34,633 nucleotides of DNA, from assembly GCA_014879845.1 (NCBI GenBank), contig JACSRI010000142.1:1-34633 (forward strand), read 5' to 3'. Shown piece by piece: positions 22,681 through 31,876 of this stretch. The position numbers and the translations under genes were made by a program. Numbering within the stretch: position 1 is the stretch's first letter; each line of letters opens with the position of its first letter. The notes below the pieces were generated by a model. It worked only from the letters and a program-made list of their open reading frames with translations, was not told where the DNA came from and ran no database searches. The stretch is from Opitutaceae bacterium (GTDB taxonomy: Bacteria > Verrucomicrobiota > Verrucomicrobiia > Opitutales > Opitutaceae).

Positions 22681-23073
22681 ATGCTCAAACACGGCATCCT
22701 CAACCCCGCTTTGCTCGAGCTGCTCGCGCGGTTCCGGCATACCAACACGCTGGTCGTGGCCGACCGCGGTTTTCCCTTCTATCCGCAACTCCCGACGGTC
22801 GACATCAGTCTCGTCGACAATATCCCGACGGTCCGCCAGGTGCTCGCCGCCATCTCGGCCAGCTACGTCGTCGGCGCCGCCTGGATGGCGAAGGAGGCGC
22901 TTTCGCACAATCCGCCGGCGGTGATGGATGAATACCGCCGCCTGCTCGCGCCGGTGGAGATCCGCTTTGAGGGGCACTACACGGAGTTCAAGCCGCGCGT
23001 CCCTGGCGCGATCGGCATCATTCGCACAGGCGACACCACGCAGTTCGGCAATATCATCCTCGAGTCGGCATGA
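22681..23073 (+). CDS. RbsD/FucU family sugar mutarotase
   Basis: A 130-residue protein of the RbsD/FucU fold, which interconverts pyranose/furanose forms or anomers of ribose or fucose so that kinases and dehydrogenases get the right form. Signatures are MLKHGILNPALLELLARF, then HTNTLVVADRGFPFYP (active-site His and Asp region) and the C-terminal IIRTGDTTQFGNIILESA. The N-terminal part looks RbsD-like, but neighbours (dehydrogenase, lactonase) suit fucose or rhamnose better, so the sugar is open. The last bases overlap the start of the ion-channel gene (ATGA). No Shine-Dalgarno is seen. Confidence 0.88.
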   Translation: MLKHGILNPALLELLARFRHTNTLVVADRGFPFYPQLPTVDISLVDNIPTVRQVLAAISASYVVGAAWMAKEALSHNPPAVMDEYRRLLAPVEIRFEGHYTEFKPRVPGAIGIIRTGDTTQFGNIILESA

Positions 23074-24080
23074 CCTCGGTTGGCGCGATGCGTCGGTTGG
23101 CGGTCGTCGGCGTGCTGCTCCTCGGGGCCGGCGCCGCGACGGCGGCCGACTACGCGCGGCCCGGCGAGGCGGCCGGGCCGACGGAGGTGCGCGTCGCGAT
23201 CTCCGTCCTCGATCTCACCGGGATCAACGACACGGCGCAGACCATCACGGCGAATGTGTTCATCCGGGCGCGCTGGCAGGATCCGCGCCTGGCGGAGGAC
23301 GGCGCCGGGCCGCGGACGAGAGGCCTCGCCGAAGCCTGGCATCCGCGCCTCCAGGTCTTCAACGACGCCGGCACGCGCGCGACCCTGCCCAACGAGGTGG
23401 AGATCTCGCCCGACGGCACCGTCACCCAGCGCATCCGGCTGGTCGGCGCATTCAGTGAAGTGCTGCATCTCGAGGACTTTCCCTTCGACCGTCAGATCTT
23501 CTCCATCCGGCTGGTGGCGACAGGCTACACCGCGGAGACGGTGCGCCTGGTCGCGGATGCGGAGGGATTCGCCGCCGTCAACGACCAGTGGGCCGTCTCG
23601 AACTGGACGCTGCTCGGCTGGGACGTGGGCCCGGCCTCGGCGCTCGTGCCGGCCGGCGGGCAGGCGGCGGAGCCCGCCAGCCTCGCGCTCAACCTGCACA
23701 TGAAGCGCAACATCGGCTACTTCCTCTTCAAGGTCCTCCTTCCGCTCGTGCTCATCTCGGCGATGTCCTGGGTGGTGTTCTGGGTCGCGCCCGAGCAGGC
23801 GGCCACGAAGATCAGCGTATCCATCACCTCGATGCTCACGCTCATCGCCAACCGCTTCATGGTCGACGCGCTCGTGCCGCGCGTCTCCTACCTCACGCGG
23901 CTCGACCTCTTCATCCTCGGCGCGACGGTCCTCGTCTTCGCCAACCTTGTGCTCGCCGTCGCCGCGAGCGTGCTGGCCGCGCGCAAGGAGCCGGAGCGCG
24001 CCCGCGCCATCGACGAGCGCTGCCGCGTCGCCCTGCCCGTGATCTTCACCGCCTGGGCCGTCTGGAGCCTGGCCTTGTAG
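23070..24080 (+). CDS. Prokaryotic pentameric ligand-gated ion channel (Cys-loop receptor family)
   Basis: A 336-residue member of the GLIC/ELIC family: signal peptide (about 1-26), extracellular beta-sandwich ligand domain (about 35-213) and four membrane helices, M1 about 216-239, M2 about 246-267, M3 about 279-302, M4 about 319-336. The diagnostic Pro-loop FPFDRQ is at residues 137-142. As in other bacterial members the flanking cysteines are absent; the only Cys is 318. M2 (ISVSITSMLTLIANRFMV) aligns by eye with ELIC, with Ser at 2', Thr at 6' and Leu at 9'. The chain ends right after M4. The ATG overlaps the stop of the mutarotase gene, so the two are translated together, an odd pairing. 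Ligand unknown. Confidence 0.93.
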   Translation: MTSVGAMRRLAVVGVLLLGAGAATAADYARPGEAAGPTEVRVAISVLDLTGINDTAQTITANVFIRARWQDPRLAEDGAGPRTRGLAEAWHPRLQVFNDAGTRATLPNEVEISPDGTVTQRIRLVGAFSEVLHLEDFPFDRQIFSIRLVATGYTAETVRLVADAEGFAAVNDQWAVSNWTLLGWDVGPASALVPAGGQAAEPASLALNLHMKRNIGYFLFKVLLPLVLISAMSWVVFWVAPEQAATKISVSITSMLTLIANRFMVDALVPRVSYLTRLDLFILGATVLVFANLVLAVAASVLAARKEPERARAIDERCRVALPVIFTAWAVWSLAL

Positions 24081-26251: not shown

Positions 26252-27514
26252 ATGAATCGCCTCCTTGTTGCCGTCTTGATCGCCTCGCTGGGCGGAAACG
26301 CGGTCCTCCTGGCCCGGCGTTATGCCAGCCCGCCGAGCGCGACCCAGCGTCCCGCAGTCGAGCACGACGGGCAGAATCGCACCGGACCCGGTGGCATGCC
26401 TGCGGCGACGACGCACGCCGGCCCCGAGGCCGAGGCCGTCGTTGTGCGTGGTGCGCAACGCTCGGCGTGGGATGCCATGGCCGCCGACGATCCGAAGATG
26501 CTGCTCGCCAACTTGCGCGCGGCCGGGATGGCCGAGGAGGACGCCCGGGCCGTCGTGCGGGCGCGCATCATCCGGCAGTTCGAGCCGCGGCGGGCTGCGA
26601 TCATGTCCGGTGCGCAGGATTTGCCCTACTGGAAGCCCGCACGCTCGGCGTTCCAGGATCCCGGGCGGCGCATGGAGTTGCGCCAGCTTCAGCGCGAGGA
26701 GGAGACGATGCTGCGCGACGTTTTCGGCGAGGAGGGCACCGATGGGTTCCCGCACACGATGGTGATCGGCTCGGTATCGCTGGCGGAGGTGAAGTCGATC
26801 CCGCTTCCGCCCGAAAAACAGCAGGCCTTGTCACGCGTGATGCGTGACTACGCCGACATGTCCTCGGATGTCCTTTTTGAGTCCGGTTTCGGCATCTTGA
26901 TGCCGTGGGATCGCGAGAAGCTCGCCTACCTCGAGGCGGAAAAGCGCAAGGATATCGCGTCCGTGCTCACGCCCGAGGAACTCGAGACGTACGATCTCTA
27001 TGCGTCGGGCACCGCCCAGAATCTGCGCCGGCAGCTCAGCGGCTTCGACGCGACTGAGGCGGAGTTTCGTGCGATCTACGCGATCGAGGCCGCCTCCAGA
27101 TCGGGCTTGCCAGCGGAGGTCTTCGGCGCGCCCGTGAGCTTCTCCCCGGGATCCGCGAGCGAACGGCGCGAGAAGATCAGGGCGGCCCTCGGCGAAGCGC
27201 GCTACGCGGACTACGAGCGCGTGACGGACCAGAGCTTCCAGCGCGCGCGGGATATCACCACGCGGTTGAACCTGCCGGTGGAAAACGCCACCGCCGCCTA
27301 CCAGCTTGGTCGCGAGATGCAGCGACGCGCGGAGGAGGTGCGCGCCGCGAGCACGATGACAAACGACGAGCGGAAGGCGGCCATGGCCGCGCTCGCGCAG
27401 GAGGCCGGCGCCCACCTCGATGCGCTGCTCACGCCGGAGGGCGCGAAGGCCTACCGGAATACCGGCGGCTCGTCGTGGCTGCGGTCGATCGAGGCCCGGG
27501 GAGGTGCGCGATGA
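26252..27514 (+). CDS. Tandem paralogue A: membrane-anchored helical protein
   Basis: Not a named family that I recognise. The 420-residue chain has one N-terminal membrane helix (about 4-21) containing Asn16, then a low-complexity Pro/Ala/Thr linker (about 25-65) and a long helical body presumably outside the membrane. Family landmarks: LRAAGMAEEDARAVVRARI (88-106), aromatic pair Tyr126-Trp127, LPPEKQ then DYADM (185-203), LTPEELETY (239-247), the TAQNLRRQL-to-EFRAIYAIEA block (254-280), LGEARYADY (313-321), LNLPVENATAAY (339-350) and LTPEGAKAYRNTGGSSWLR (393-411). The ATG at 26252 fits the membrane anchor; the frame is open far upstream but that is a shadow of the lactonase gene. Its stop overlaps gene B (ATGA). 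It is closest to C. Confidence 0.85.
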   Translation: MNRLLVAVLIASLGGNAVLLARRYASPPSATQRPAVEHDGQNRTGPGGMPAATTHAGPEAEAVVVRGAQRSAWDAMAADDPKMLLANLRAAGMAEEDARAVVRARIIRQFEPRRAAIMSGAQDLPYWKPARSAFQDPGRRMELRQLQREEETMLRDVFGEEGTDGFPHTMVIGSVSLAEVKSIPLPPEKQQALSRVMRDYADMSSDVLFESGFGILMPWDREKLAYLEAEKRKDIASVLTPEELETYDLYASGTAQNLRRQLSGFDATEAEFRAIYAIEAASRSGLPAEVFGAPVSFSPGSASERREKIRAALGEARYADYERVTDQSFQRARDITTRLNLPVENATAAYQLGREMQRRAEEVRAASTMTNDERKAAMAALAQEAGAHLDALLTPEGAKAYRNTGGSSWLRSIEARGGAR

Positions 27515-28755
27515 GATCGATGCTCTGGATCGCGCTCGGTGCCTCCGCGATCGTCAACACCGCCCTTCTGGTCGGCGACCCGCGGCAGGCCAGGAGCATG
27601 CGGCCGGCGGTCCCTGCTCCCGCTCCCGCCTCCGAAACGATGACCCCGACGGCGCGGTCTGGAAAAACGGCGTCCGTCGCGCACCTACCCACGGATCTCG
27701 TGGCGCCGGGCATGGCGTTCGAGTCAACCGACCTTGTCGCCTTCCGCGATCGTCTGCGCAGCGCCGGGTTCCCGGACTGGGCGGTCGCGGCACTGGTCGG
27801 CCGGCGCATCGACGCGCATTTCGACGAGGTGAGGCGCCAGCGCCTCGGCCCGGCAGAAATCGACCCCTTCTGGAAATCACCCGATCCGGCCCGGGATCAG
27901 CAACGACGGCGGGTGGCGCGCGAGATTTCGCGCGAGCAGGCGGCGATGCGGCGCGAGATTCTCGGGCCGATCTCTGATCCGGTCGGGACATACCAGGCCG
28001 GTCGGCTTGCCTTCCTGCCCCCGGACAAGGTCGACCTCATCGCCCGTCTCGAGTCCGATTACTCCGAGCTGAGCAGCGACGTCCGCATGGATGGCGGCGG
28101 TCGCATGATCCTCGAGGAAGACCGCGAGAAACTGCTCATGATCGAGCGCGAGAAGCGCGCGGACCTCGCGGCCGCGCTCACGCCGGAGGAACTCGAGGCC
28201 TACGACCTGCGCCATTCGCAGACCGCTCAGAGCGTCCGCGGCCGCATGGCCAACTTCGATCCGACGGAGGAGGAGTTTCTTGCCGTGTATGCGCTCCAGA
28301 AGGTCTTTGACGAACGCTTCCCGCCCAGCGTCGGCATGACGACCCGTTCACCGGAAGAGATGAAGGCGCGGCGCGATGCGGAGGCGGAGCTGAAGACCCA
28401 GATCCGGGCGGCCCTCGGCGAGGATCGCTATCTCGAATATGAGCGATCGGGCAATCATGGCTACCAGACCGCGCTGAAGATCGTGGATCACTTCAAACTC
28501 CCGCGCGAGAACGCCGCGTCGGTCTACACGCTCGAGAGCGAATACCGGCAGCGCCAAAGCGAGGCGATGCGCGGCAGCCAGGATCAGGCCGCGCGCAATG
28601 AAGCGCTCACGGCCCTCGCGGCCGAGGCCTCAGCGCGCGTGGTCGCGCTCCTGGGCGAAGAGGGCGCGAGGGCCTTCAAGGAGACGGGTGGACACTGGCT
28701 GCGCAACCTCGAGCAGCAAGCCGGGCGGGCGGCACCACCGGCACAGCGACCGTGA
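27511..28755 (+). CDS. Tandem paralogue B: membrane-anchored helical protein
   Basis: 414 residues, same architecture as A: membrane helix about 4-21 with Asn16, Pro/Ala-rich linker about 22-65, then a helical body. Landmarks are LRSAGFPDWAVAALVGRRI (82-100), Phe120-Trp121, LPPDKVDLIARLESDYSEL (169-187), LTPEELEAY (223-231), the TAQSVRGRM/PTEEEFLAVYALQ block (238-263), LGEDRYLEY (302-310), LPRENAASVYTLESEYRQR (330-348) and LGEEGARAFKETGGHWLR (381-398), ending EQQAGRAAPPAQRP. GGGGAGG about 10 bases before the ATG is a good ribosome site, and the ATG overlaps the stop of A. Its C-terminal third is nearly the same as that of D, down to a 25-base identical DNA stretch encoding VALLGEEG. Confidence 0.85.
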   Translation: MRSMLWIALGASAIVNTALLVGDPRQARSMRPAVPAPAPASETMTPTARSGKTASVAHLPTDLVAPGMAFESTDLVAFRDRLRSAGFPDWAVAALVGRRIDAHFDEVRRQRLGPAEIDPFWKSPDPARDQQRRRVAREISREQAAMRREILGPISDPVGTYQAGRLAFLPPDKVDLIARLESDYSELSSDVRMDGGGRMILEEDREKLLMIEREKRADLAAALTPEELEAYDLRHSQTAQSVRGRMANFDPTEEEFLAVYALQKVFDERFPPSVGMTTRSPEEMKARRDAEAELKTQIRAALGEDRYLEYERSGNHGYQTALKIVDHFKLPRENAASVYTLESEYRQRQSEAMRGSQDQAARNEALTALAAEASARVVALLGEEGARAFKETGGHWLRNLEQQAGRAAPPAQRP

Positions 28756-28886
28756 GGCGCTGCGGGGGCTTGCTCACCGGCGCAGCATTCGCGACTCGAT
28801 CAGTCCACCGGTGCGTGCTCTTCTGGGGCTGATCGTGGCACCGCGTGCGTTTGCCGCGGTCGAACTTCTGCGACACCCCTGCTTCC

Positions 28887-30152
28887 ATGAAGTCCGGACT
28901 GGTCTGGATGCTTGCCCTTTCCCTGGGCGCCAATGCCGCGCTGCTGGCGGCGCGCTGGCGGTCGTCGCCGACGCCCTCGTCACCGTTCGCGCGTGACGAT
29001 GCGGCATCGGTCGGGCCGGCTGCGGCGGGTGCCCGTGCACTCGGCGAGGGCCCGGCATCCGGCGTCGCGGGCGCGCCCTCTGCGCCGGCGTCCGAAACGA
29101 CCCTGTGGTCCGCGCTGGATCTCGGTGACCTGAGGTCCGTCGCCGCGGCCCTGCGGGCCGCCGGGATTCCCGAGGATGATGTGCGCGTGATTGTGGGTGC
29201 GGTGATCGACGATCGCTACAAGGCGCGCTTCGAAGCCATCGAGGCGCGGGAGCGGCAGCGTCCGTTCTGGAGCGTGCGCGGCCGGGGCGCGGGCTCGGAA
29301 TGGGCCAGCCGGTATTCAGAGTCCTACGGTTTGTGGCGCGAAGCCGAGGCACTGAAGCGCGATGTGCTCGGACCGGAGCCGCTCGGGCTGATGGAGGCGC
29401 GCAATCTCCGGGCTCAGTACGGTCCGCTGTCCGAGGACAGGCTCCAGGCCATGGTGCAGCTCGAGCGCGACTATCAGGATCTCTCGATGCAGACGGGATC
29501 CTTCAGCAGCGGTCCCCGCATGCCGTGGGAGAACGAGCAGGCCGAGTTCATCGCGGCCGAGAGGCGCCGTGACATCGAGGCGCTGCTCACGCCCGAGGAA
29601 CTCGCGACCTATGATCTGCACGCGTCCTACACGTCGCAGGACCTGCGCCGCCAGCTCGCGGCGTTTGCCCCGACCGAGCAGGAGTTTCTCGCGCTTTATG
29701 CCCTGCAGAACGAGCACGTGCGCACGCATGGATTGAAGACGCCGCCGATGAACGAGGTGGACTTGAGTGCGGCCGAGAAGGTCAAGCCTCAGCTGATCGA
29801 GCAGATCAAGGTGACGCTGGGCGAGGAGCGGTTTCGCGAGTACGAACGTGCGACGGATGCGGGGTATCGGGTCGCGTTCAGCGTGACCCAACGCCTGAAC
29901 CTGCCGCGCGAGAATGCCGCGACCGCGTATTCCCTGGCTGAGGACACGCGGGCTGCCGTCAAGGCGCTGAACCGCGACACCGCTCTCACCGCAGTCGACC
30001 GCGCCGCCGCAATGGGGCGGCTGCTCGACGAGGCCGATGCGCGACTCGACACCATTCTCACGCCGGCCGGTGCCTCGGTCTACCGCGCCCGCTCGAGCCA
30101 GTGGCGTTACGTGCAGTCTGAGTTGAGCCAGAAACAACGGGAGGCCAGATGA
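28887..30152 (+). CDS. Tandem paralogue C: membrane-anchored helical protein
   Basis: 421 residues, family architecture with membrane helix about 4-22 (Asn16) and a Ser/Pro/Ala-rich linker to about residue 70. Landmarks are LRAAGIPEDDVRVIVGAVI (89-107), Phe127-Trp128, LSEDRLQAMVQLERDYQDL (181-199), LTPEELATY (234-242), QDLRRQLAAFAPTEQEFLAL (251-270), LGEERFREY (311-319), LNLPRENAATAYSLAE (337-352) and a diverged last motif LTPAGASVYRARSSQWRY (391-408). It lacks the EQQAGRA tail of B and D. It starts a second pair after a 131-bp gap that holds no clear promoter. There is no Shine-Dalgarno before the ATG. Best match within the array is A. Confidence 0.85.
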   Translation: MKSGLVWMLALSLGANAALLAARWRSSPTPSSPFARDDAASVGPAAAGARALGEGPASGVAGAPSAPASETTLWSALDLGDLRSVAAALRAAGIPEDDVRVIVGAVIDDRYKARFEAIEARERQRPFWSVRGRGAGSEWASRYSESYGLWREAEALKRDVLGPEPLGLMEARNLRAQYGPLSEDRLQAMVQLERDYQDLSMQTGSFSSGPRMPWENEQAEFIAAERRRDIEALLTPEELATYDLHASYTSQDLRRQLAAFAPTEQEFLALYALQNEHVRTHGLKTPPMNEVDLSAAEKVKPQLIEQIKVTLGEERFREYERATDAGYRVAFSVTQRLNLPRENAATAYSLAEDTRAAVKALNRDTALTAVDRAAAMGRLLDEADARLDTILTPAGASVYRARSSQWRYVQSELSQKQREAR

Positions 30153-31384
30153 AGTCGCCGGGAGTCGTGGTGCTCGTGCTCTCGCTCGCGGCCAACGTCG
30201 CGCTGGTCCTCGGCGCTTGGCGGACTCCAGTGCAGAGGCAGGCGGTGGCATCGGCGACGGAGGGTGGTGCACCGGTCCGGGACTCCGCCCCGGACGCGGC
30301 GCCGGAGCGGACTGGACCCGCCGGGGCCGGGGTGGTGCCTGCCGGCGGCGCTGCGGGTCTCGGCTCGCCCGACCCCGCAGTCGTGCGGGATGCGCTGCGC
30401 GCCGCCGGGGTGCCGGAAGTGTATGTGCGCGCTGTCGTCTGGCGCCGGATACGAGCGACCCATCACGCCGAGATCGAGGCCATCGTCCGCGCCCGCGGCG
30501 AGTCGCACTACTGGGAGCCGGCGGACCGTGCCGCCGACGCAGCCATGCGGGCGGCCGCGAACGAACTCGATCGCGCCATGCGCGAGGAGTTCAAGCAGTT
30601 CTTCGGCGAGGCCTATGGCGAGGTGGCGCGCGCGCGCCGCGCCCGCGAACGGCTCGCCTTCCTTCCTGGTGACAAGGCCGAGGAGGTCACGCGCATCTCC
30701 GAGGACTATGCGGAGCTCACACGCAAGATCCGCGACGACATGGTCTCGGGCGTCGTGCTCGATGAGGACCAGCAGAAGCTGGCCATGCTCGAGGACGAGC
30801 GGACAGCGGACCTCGCCCGGGTGTTGACGCCGGGGGAGCTGGACCTCTTCGAGCTGCACACCTCGCGCACCGCGGAAACGATGCGCTCGCGCCTGGGCTA
30901 TTTCGAGCCGACGGAGCAGGAGTTTCGTGCGATCTTTGCGCTCCAGAGCGCGTACGATCGCGAGTACGGTTCCAGTTTCGGCGCGTCGTCGCGCGAGGCG
31001 ATGCAAGCCCGTGCGGTGGCGCAGCGGGAGCTGGGCGAGCAGATCGCGCGCGCATTGGGTCCCGACCGCTACGCGGACTACCAGCGGGCGACCAACACCT
31101 CCTATCAGGCGGCGGTGAAGATCGCTGACCACTTCGGACGCCCGCGCGAGAGCGCCGGCTCAGTCCACGCCCTCGAGCAGGAATACCGGCAGCGGGCGAG
31201 GGTGGCGATGTCGGCGGGCGACCGGTCGCAGGCTGCGGTGCTGGCCCAGACCATGGCGGCCGAGGCTTGGGATCGTGTCGTCGCGCTCCTGGGCGAAGAG
31301 GGCGCCAAGGCTTATCGCGAGACGGGCGGTTCCTGGCTGCGCAGTATGGAGCAGCAGGCCGGGCGCGCGGCGCCCGCGCCATAG
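30149..31384 (+). CDS. Tandem paralogue D: membrane-anchored helical protein
   Basis: 411 residues, membrane helix about 5-22 with Asn16, Ala/Pro/Gly-rich linker to about 75, then the helical body. Landmarks are LRAAGVPEVYVRAVVWRRI (83-101), Tyr121-Trp122, LPGDKAEEVTRISEDYAEL (172-190), LTPGELDLF (226-234; a Gly replaces the first Glu), TAETMRSRL/PTEQEFRAIFALQ (241-266), LGPDRYADY (303-311), RPRESAGSVHALEQEYRQR (331-349) and LGEEGAKAYRETGGSWLR (381-398), ending EQQAGRAAPAP. The ATG overlaps the stop of C and is preceded by GGGAGG. It pairs with B by sequence, so A-B and C-D look like two copies of one two-gene unit. Confidence 0.85.
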   Translation: MKSPGVVVLVLSLAANVALVLGAWRTPVQRQAVASATEGGAPVRDSAPDAAPERTGPAGAGVVPAGGAAGLGSPDPAVVRDALRAAGVPEVYVRAVVWRRIRATHHAEIEAIVRARGESHYWEPADRAADAAMRAAANELDRAMREEFKQFFGEAYGEVARARRARERLAFLPGDKAEEVTRISEDYAELTRKIRDDMVSGVVLDEDQQKLAMLEDERTADLARVLTPGELDLFELHTSRTAETMRSRLGYFEPTEQEFRAIFALQSAYDREYGSSFGASSREAMQARAVAQRELGEQIARALGPDRYADYQRATNTSYQAAVKIADHFGRPRESAGSVHALEQEYRQRARVAMSAGDRSQAAVLAQTMAAEAWDRVVALLGEEGAKAYRETGGSWLRSMEQQAGRAAPAP

Positions 31385-31501: not shown

Positions 31502-31876
31502 ATGAAAGTCTTCCATTTCGTCCTGGTTGCATCGTTGGCCGCCGCAGGAGCCCTCGGGCTCTCGGGCTGTATTTGTGTGAGTGAGACGGAGGTCGCGGAC
31601 GATCCGCGCGCCAAGGTTTCCTTCGAAAGCGACCGCGCCGCCCGTGTCTTCTACGAAGCGCTCGCGAGCACCCCGCTGCCCGGCGATACCGTGGAGAAGC
31701 GCTCCAGCGTCTCGCTCGTCCTCGTCAATGTGGACAGCAAGACCGTGACCGGACCGAACCGCGCCTACAACCAGGCCGTCCTCTTCTGCGACTCGGACGG
31801 CAACGGCGAAATCACTGAGCACGAGGCTGGAATCTTCGCGGCCGAGTGGCCGAGGCATCAGGCCGCGAGGGGCTGA
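31502..31876 (+). CDS. Small lipoprotein with one EF-hand loop
   Basis: A 124-residue predicted lipoprotein: short signal peptide (MKVFHFVLVASLAAAGALG) and lipobox LSGC (Cys23). Near the C terminus DSDGNGEITEHE (residues 97-108) is a perfect 12-residue EF-hand calcium loop, with Asp, Asp, Asn, Glu in the ligand positions, Gly at 6 and Ile at 8. Only one loop is seen, so calcium binding might require a dimer or a degenerate partner. The region between (KVSFESDRAARVFYEAL and SSVSLVLVNVDSKTVTGPNRAYNQAVLF) is not recognised. It lies 117 bp after paralogue D on the same strand; a link to that array is possible but unproven. A hairpin follows closely. Confidence 0.75.
   Translation: MKVFHFVLVASLAAAGALGLSGCICVSETEVADDPRAKVSFESDRAARVFYEALASTPLPGDTVEKRSSVSLVLVNVDSKTVTGPNRAYNQAVLFCDSDGNGEITEHEAGIFAAEWPRHQAARG

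Follow-up and report, generated by a model that had tools for sequence, protein, structure and literature searches.

Spy is a four-helix protein whose cradle-shaped homodimer binds unfolded clients (PMC8144458), and such a homodimer would be a natural starting point from which paralogues could evolve heteromers (PMC6711710, PMC1895999). Here, a 34,633-nucleotide stretch of DNA from an Opitutaceae bacterium (contig JACSRI010000142.1, positions 1 to 34,633; hereafter the window) has been analysed, in which four adjacent same-strand paralogous genes, A to D, occupy positions 26252-31384. Their products are distant relatives of the LTXXQ (Spy/CpxP) family and thus are known in kind, and the genes form two pairs of which one arose by duplication of the other as a unit. 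The initial annotation, made from the letters alone, had described a duplicated two-gene module and proposed it as an undescribed system; the pair-module part is right and is a recurrent pattern, the stoichiometric complex that it suggested for the two types is putative, and the distant relationship to Spy and CpxP means that the system is not undescribed in kind. No paper on the A–D family was recognised in the open-licence PMC literature among the matches listed. The layout of the locus, with gene types assigned from open reading frames (ORFs) and trees, is as follows.

26252..27514, + strand: gene A, 420 amino acids (aa), first-type member
27511..28755, + strand: gene B, 414 aa, second-type member
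28887..30152, + strand: gene C, 421 aa, first-type member, sister of A
30149..31384, + strand: gene D, 411 aa, second-type member, sister of B
27511..27514, + strand: ATGA stop/start overlap of A and B
30149..30152, + strand: ATGA stop/start overlap of C and D
28756..28886, + strand: 131-bp spacer between B and C, separating the two pairs

All six BLASTP comparisons among the four proteins are significant, in agreement with the annotated run of consecutive paralogues of these lengths, and the coordinates bear out the two overlaps and the gap between B and C. The spacer contains no match to a sigma-70-like promoter or to a terminator. The GC content at codon position 3 is 0.82-0.85 in A–D, similar to that of three nearby genes (0.81-0.87).

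The maximum-likelihood tree of 99 members (99 of 100 sequences; the member set retains 96 of 101 that are less than 85% alike and at least 360 aa long) joins A to C (support 93) and B to D (94), and next to each of these two groups stands a gene from L080, a locus of two genes in a related genome (86 and 91, respectively). A tree of 38 rows of array members from 11 loci gives the same result: A+C is supported by 98/92, and by 97/87 together with gene 1 of L080, and B+D by 96/90, and by 100/95 together with gene 2 of L080, with A–D and both L080 genes in one clade (97/89). A grouping of A with B was looked for and did not occur. In BLASTP, B–D is the closest comparison (42.8% identity, 247 bits), followed by A–C (37.2%, 186 bits), A–B (38.3%, 174 bits), A–D (33.9%, 159 bits), B–C (32.8%, 144 bits) and C–D (29.8%, 128 bits). 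The annotated closeness of B to D is therefore clear, whereas A–C exceeds A–B by bits only, and so the grouping of A with C is taken from the trees because identity alone does not favour it over A–B. The sequence motifs quoted in the annotation are confined to the claimed pairs among A–D, LRRQL and LNLPxENA occurring only in A and C, whereas only B and D contain EYRQR, LGEEGA and EQQAGRAAP. B and D share an identical DNA stretch of 26 rather than 25 bases; the longest such stretch is 21 bases for A–C and 11-17 for the remaining pairs.

The duplication of pairs as pairs recurs in other arrays. The six genes of array L070, from another genome, fall into a clade of genes 1, 3 and 5 (100/100) and a clade of genes 2, 4 and 6 (100/99), and in L086 of the 38-row tree genes 1 and 3 (96/85) and genes 2 and 4 (100/98) cluster; this tree leaves out L043, L044, L136-L140, L148 and several two-gene loci, the non-alternating arrays being among those left out. 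When 11 of the 12 arrays of at least four genes were scored by identity (L053 was omitted for a short member, and L044 and L055 contain partial members), the alternating partition was the best in nine, with L043 and L137 as exceptions, a result with a chance probability of 7.4e-5 on the assumption that arrays are independent, which they are only partially since L044, L045, L047 and L050 share ancestry. The margins are small in L047 (0.004), L136 (0.011) and L055 (0.026), and in L044 the alternating split is narrowly ahead of another one, the last two genes being alike. One of the four three-gene arrays alternates (L138) and three do not, and the non-alternating arrays are L043, L137, L139, L140 and L148. 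A 1220-bp gap within the otherwise tight array of L044 (L044:8559-9778) perhaps marks an uncalled or decayed member.

Gene coupling follows the same pairs. In seven alternating arrays (without L055 and L136, and with an available ATG used in place of the called start at one L070 junction), a four-base overlap occurs at 9 of 17 within-pair junctions and at none of 10 between-pair junctions (Fisher p 0.005), and intergenic gaps are shorter within pairs than between them (p 1.5e-4). The distance matrices of first-type and second-type members correlate over 22 pairs (r 0.82, p 1e-4), which shared ancestry alone may explain. Family members tend to be copied in units of two genes, suggesting that the partners work together. 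A single ancient split into the two types was rejected: one clade for all second genes gave a p-AU of 6.9e-5 on the 38 chosen rows, with genes grouped by array position (for L055, with its truncated first gene, by resemblance to L047) and with the grouping chosen after a quick tree had been inspected. Pairing may thus have more than one origin; the two types seem to have emerged repeatedly or to have been homogenised within lineages, and an appearance of separate origins could also result from gene conversion within arrays.

Family members were found in 19 of 57 genomes, host included, all 19 from the family of the host, and in none of 20 genomes from other families of its order. Within the host's family, 70 of 150 genomes match, host included, and across the phylum 13 of 194, all again from that family; at most nine candidates per genome were scored in the phylum-survey rows shown, and so distant copies have possibly been missed. 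Three further members are present in the host genome, a single one on C256 and a tandem of two at the end of contig C35; the latter two (C35:30750-32569, L009) are divergent and may be a second pair. Named records contain 28 loci, among them a Limisphaerales locus (L058) and its close kin L056, L057, L060 and L061, whose records are titled Klebsiella, Akkermansia and Proteobacteria (two) and look like mislabelled metagenome bins; L056, L060 and L061 are included in the 99-member tree.

The AlphaFold2 model of A, built with 92 family sequences (alignment A2, 92 of 100 sequences after eight divergent or short ones were dropped), has a mean pLDDT of 85.5 and a pTM of 0.73. It consists of a helix at residues 3-25, a low-confidence linker (pLDDT below 50 at residues 31-49) and an all-helical body at residues 63-415, in which four repeats, r1 to r4, were delimited after the model had been inspected. 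Judged by eye, the N terminus is short and carries a basic residue and no lipobox Cys. A short N terminus followed by one hydrophobic helix without a lipobox suggests that A is tethered to the inner membrane with its helical chain in the periplasm; because basic residues flank the helix on both sides, the periplasmic orientation is a guess. The parts of A and the counterparts of its last repeat are the following.

26258..26326, + strand: residues 3-25 of A, predicted helix read as a membrane signal anchor (AlphaFold2; sequence by eye)
26483..26767, + strand: residues 78-172 of A, repeat r1, a helical hairpin that has diverged, with a relationship to r2 and r4 and none directly to LTXXQ (profile comparison)
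26771..27037, + strand: residues 174-262 of A, repeat r2, LTXXQ-like hairpin (95.2% in hhalign; 5io8_B ranked first among the structure rows)
27035..27253, + strand: residues 262-334 of A, repeat r3, hairpin with weak likeness to LTXXQ (65.1% in hhalign by itself, 18.7% when the whole body is aligned)
27239..27499, + strand: residues 330-416 of A, repeat r4, LTXXQ-like hairpin (hhalign 93.4%)
28441..28731, + strand: r4-equivalent of B
29844..30143, + strand: r4-equivalent of C
31082..31369, + strand: r4-equivalent of D

The comparison with the LTXXQ family is based on 16 PF07813 matches from 14 of 38 relative genomes, 13 of which are over the cut-off alone or with in-frame neighbours; ten of the 16 make up alignment A3, which contains none of the three under the Pfam cut-off. 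Profile–profile comparison with the 16 proteins gives 95.2% for r2, 93.4% for r4, 65.1% for r3 and 3.1% for r1, and a single run with the whole body of A gives 88.8%, 80.4% and 18.7% for r2, r4 and r3, respectively. Reversed profiles reach at most 2.3% and 30 plain shuffles per repeat at most 1.2%. Thirty shuffles of seven-column blocks reach up to 76.7% for r2, 17.6% for r3 and 18.8% for r4, with scores always below the real ones (29.7 vs 43.7 for r2, 20.1 vs 26.4 for r3 and 20.9 vs 38.4 for r4). Consistently, A2 matches A3 with 88.2% over residues 330-404 of A. The repeats of A also resemble one another, r2–r4 with 95.2%, r3–r4 with 86.3%, r1–r4 with 81.6% and r1–r2 with 80.3%, and more weakly r2–r3 with 35.0% and r1–r3 with 32.1%, all being values without a control. 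A segment alignment, A4, holds 47 of 66 segments from the first 66 rows of A2.

Searches with single profiles point in the same direction. The family profile, built without LTXXQ proteins, places three of the 16 LTXXQ proteins above the inclusion threshold (25.3, 23.1 and 17.8 bits), and in the two alignments inspected in full it is r4 that is covered. The reciprocal LTXXQ profile, made from 10 of the 16 proteins, scores at least 8 bits for 51 of 118 family members compared with 1 of 594 other genes, which are neighbours not selected as helical (only identical sequences were removed from both sets); its top 20 scorers are all family members, and A scores 12.4 bits over residues 329-402. Against the Protein Data Bank (PDB), the same profile finds Spy (3oeo, 3.1e-11), CpxP (3qzc, 1.9e-6) and the VirG-like protein of Salmonella (5ihf/5io8, 0.0059). 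Applied to the host genome with E up to 1, PF07813 itself yields four matches, one of which lies inside the C256 member (C256:9867-10139) with 17.6 bits, below the curated cut-off of 24.3 bits. Homology of A–D to the LTXXQ family is thus well supported by profile comparison, strongly for two repeats, weakly for one and indirectly for r1. A–D are not filed as PF07813 members because they stay below the curated cut-off and because A has four helical repeats, two to three of them LTXXQ-like, rather than a single LTXXQ domain.

The annotated lack of a named family holds in direct searches, where no match at or above a curated cut-off was observed in Pfam or NCBIfam, and gives way to a distant relationship only when profiles are compared. 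The best Pfam match of A–D is Syd on D (E 0.00064, 19.8 bits, cut-off 25), which was set aside as a chance match because only one of 92 members shows it, and the best NCBIfam match is PRK04968 (SecY-interacting protein), also on D, with 13.6 of 153. Among the 25 of 56 Pfam families shown for 92 members, none matches more than two members, and NCBIfam gives 25 families with one member each (best E 0.00073). Sequence searches of the PDB are weak, with best E values of 0.083 for phmmer of A, 0.15 for a member of L095 and 0.033 for the 92-member profile.

These observations lead to a hypothesis that we find about evenly poised between right and wrong, namely that A–D are membrane-tethered, periplasm-facing multi-Spy-like proteins that probably serve as adaptors in envelope stress or as ATP-independent chaperones, and that A and B form a heteromer. 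Each protein would be held in the inner membrane by a signal anchor, continue through a flexible linker and end in four consecutive helical hairpins in the periplasm that derive from LTXXQ (Spy/CpxP-type) domains, and the family members would act either as holdase-type chaperones that need no ATP or as adaptors for envelope stress held at the membrane. An ancestral homo-oligomer may have been duplicated into the two types A and B, which would be co-translated through the ATGA junction and assemble with each other, and the A–B unit would then have been duplicated whole to give C–D. A Spy-like hairpin chain in two coupled and co-duplicated paralogues suggests such a tethered heteromeric holdase or stress adaptor; from these features we infer the membrane anchoring, the periplasmic orientation, the chaperone activity and the A:B contact. 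A bolder version, which we consider rather doubtful, is that tethered Spy-like chains are an envelope chaperone class of new architecture that was repeatedly and independently turned from homomers into obligate two-type heteromers and multiplied as A–B cassettes, with up to three cassettes side by side. A cell would then contain several heteromers in parallel, which would not be interchangeable and would differ in their range of clients.

Several results weigh against the tethered heteromeric chaperone. A–D have no PF07813 match in Pfam at E up to 10, and PF07813 is absent among the Pfam families shown for the 92 members. In HMMER, 13 of the 16 LTXXQ proteins fall below the inclusion threshold of the family profile, 10 of them being unlisted. 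In profile–profile comparison, r1 has no direct LTXXQ match, and r3 fades in the whole-body alignment. Foldseek finds nothing significant for the model of A or of r4 (best E 1.6 and 2.3), and no structure row of either model attains Z 8. In favour of the relationship, a second-look aligner ranks 5io8_B first for A, over r2 (Z 7.5, 69 aligned, 2.8 Å), tied within one Z with unrelated rows such as dynein–dynactin chains at more than 14 Å, and so this match, being weak by itself for helical proteins, is weakly suggestive. The structure rows of the r4 model (pLDDT 93.6) include no Spy/CpxP relative, an absence that is not read as pointing to another fold. Among the recurring neighbours, only some of which were identified by family search, no chaperone or protease was recognised. 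Co-inheritance of A and B has a p of only 0.07 once pairs are permuted within arrays, and unequal crossing-over in units of two genes could produce the alternation as a side effect. Finally, loci with one member are the commonest class (40 of 62 rows, compared with two members in 10 and four or more in 12; L045 and L081 lie on the same contig, some rows are cut by contig ends, members are counted per stretch and are not all adjacent, and later loci chosen for having several members are excluded). Homologues are thus not always single, which agrees with the annotated module; since most homologous loci hold one member, the pair is not obligatory for the family.

The low support for co-inheritance and the prevalence of one-member loci would also fit proteins that form homomers only, with amplification of a two-gene unit by unequal crossing-over leaving the alternation without any A:B contact. 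Single-gene tandem duplicates do exist, with adjacent identities of 0.58 in L043 and 0.53 in L139 and L148. In contrast, both types have been retained through several duplications, the four-base coupling is confined to within-pair junctions in the seven alternating arrays, and the two distance matrices correlate, subject to the shared ancestry mentioned above; we regard homomers only as unlikely. Proteins of the CpxP, ZraP or CnrX type bind stress signals or metal and control a sensor kinase or an anti-sigma factor, and the same LTXXQ relationship would fit a membrane-tethered sensor or adaptor of this kind instead of a client-holding chaperone. By eye, a hybrid sensor kinase lies within four genes in eight locus rows, two of which are on the same contig, and a response-regulator-like gene lies two genes upstream on the same strand in L057-L059. 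However, six of the eight rows have the kinase on the opposite strand and only two have it adjacent (L082 and L096), the neighbours of A–D, an amidohydrolase and a 124-aa protein, include no kinase or sigma gene, and A–D beyond residue 60 have few His (2-6) and no Cys; we regard the sensor or adaptor as similarly unlikely.

The N-terminal helix, low-confidence linker and all-helical body of the model of A would likewise suit an envelope scaffold or spacer, that is, anchored hairpin rods binding peptidoglycan, the outer membrane or a lipoprotein without any chaperone role. This explanation could draw on a same-strand protein of about 370 aa directly upstream of the family member in the six related single-copy loci L056-L061, of which the only one tested, at L060, matches DUF6263 (50.1 bits) and which is a possible functional partner there. 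Since no peptidoglycan-binding family is among the Pfam and NCBIfam matches listed, and since neither the window nor L064, of the same clade as L056-L061, has this neighbour, we consider a scaffold quite improbable.

Gene neighbourhood was set aside as a guide to function, because PPK2, which recurs in 12 locus rows, and an EamA transporter, which recurs in 11 (both counts include L045 and L081, on the same contig), seem mostly to mark one orthologous location that is not the window. Directly downstream of D, the 124-aa protein (31502-31876, + strand) is lipoprotein-like, with an EF-hand-like DSDGNGEITEHEA stretch seen by eye, and has no Pfam match at E up to 0.01. Farther upstream, a 336-aa protein (23070-24080, + strand) is a candidate bacterial pentameric ligand-gated ion channel, with Neur_chan_LBD (62.4 bits) and Neur_chan_memb (53.9 bits) both above the cut-off.

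Compared with PF07813 proteins such as Spy (3oeo) and CpxP (3qzc), A–D share helical hairpins capped by motifs resembling L-[TPG]-x-[EQ], homology by profile in r2 and r4, and a presumed location in the envelope, and they differ in having an N-terminal anchor, three to four repeats per chain instead of one domain, scores below the Pfam cut-off and a family often arranged in tandem paired arrays. They are also acidic (pI 5.3-5.6 beyond residue 60), whereas a passage on Spy describes a positively charged concave face (PMC8144458). The VirG-like protein of Salmonella (5ihf/5io8), which is both the first structure row of A over r2 and a hit of the LTXXQ profile, has a chain of only 101-116 residues, and its Z of 7.5 lies within the range of the tool for unrelated helical matches. 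As in paralogous heteromers derived from a duplicated homomer, two diverged copies lie side by side and are translationally coupled; in contrast to these, the A–B pair has been duplicated again as a unit, the split possibly arose more than once, and the A:B contact is putative. The relationship to Spy and CpxP offers a first functional lead for proteins that occur in 70 of the 150 sampled genomes of the host's family and that Pfam and NCBIfam searches leave unnamed; their chaperone function is putative. The recurrent A-B-A-B arrays are a natural experiment on the change from homomer to heteromer in which several lineages can be compared, and, if the proposed explanation is true, chaperones that work without ATP would gain a new design in the membrane-tethered multi-Spy chain.

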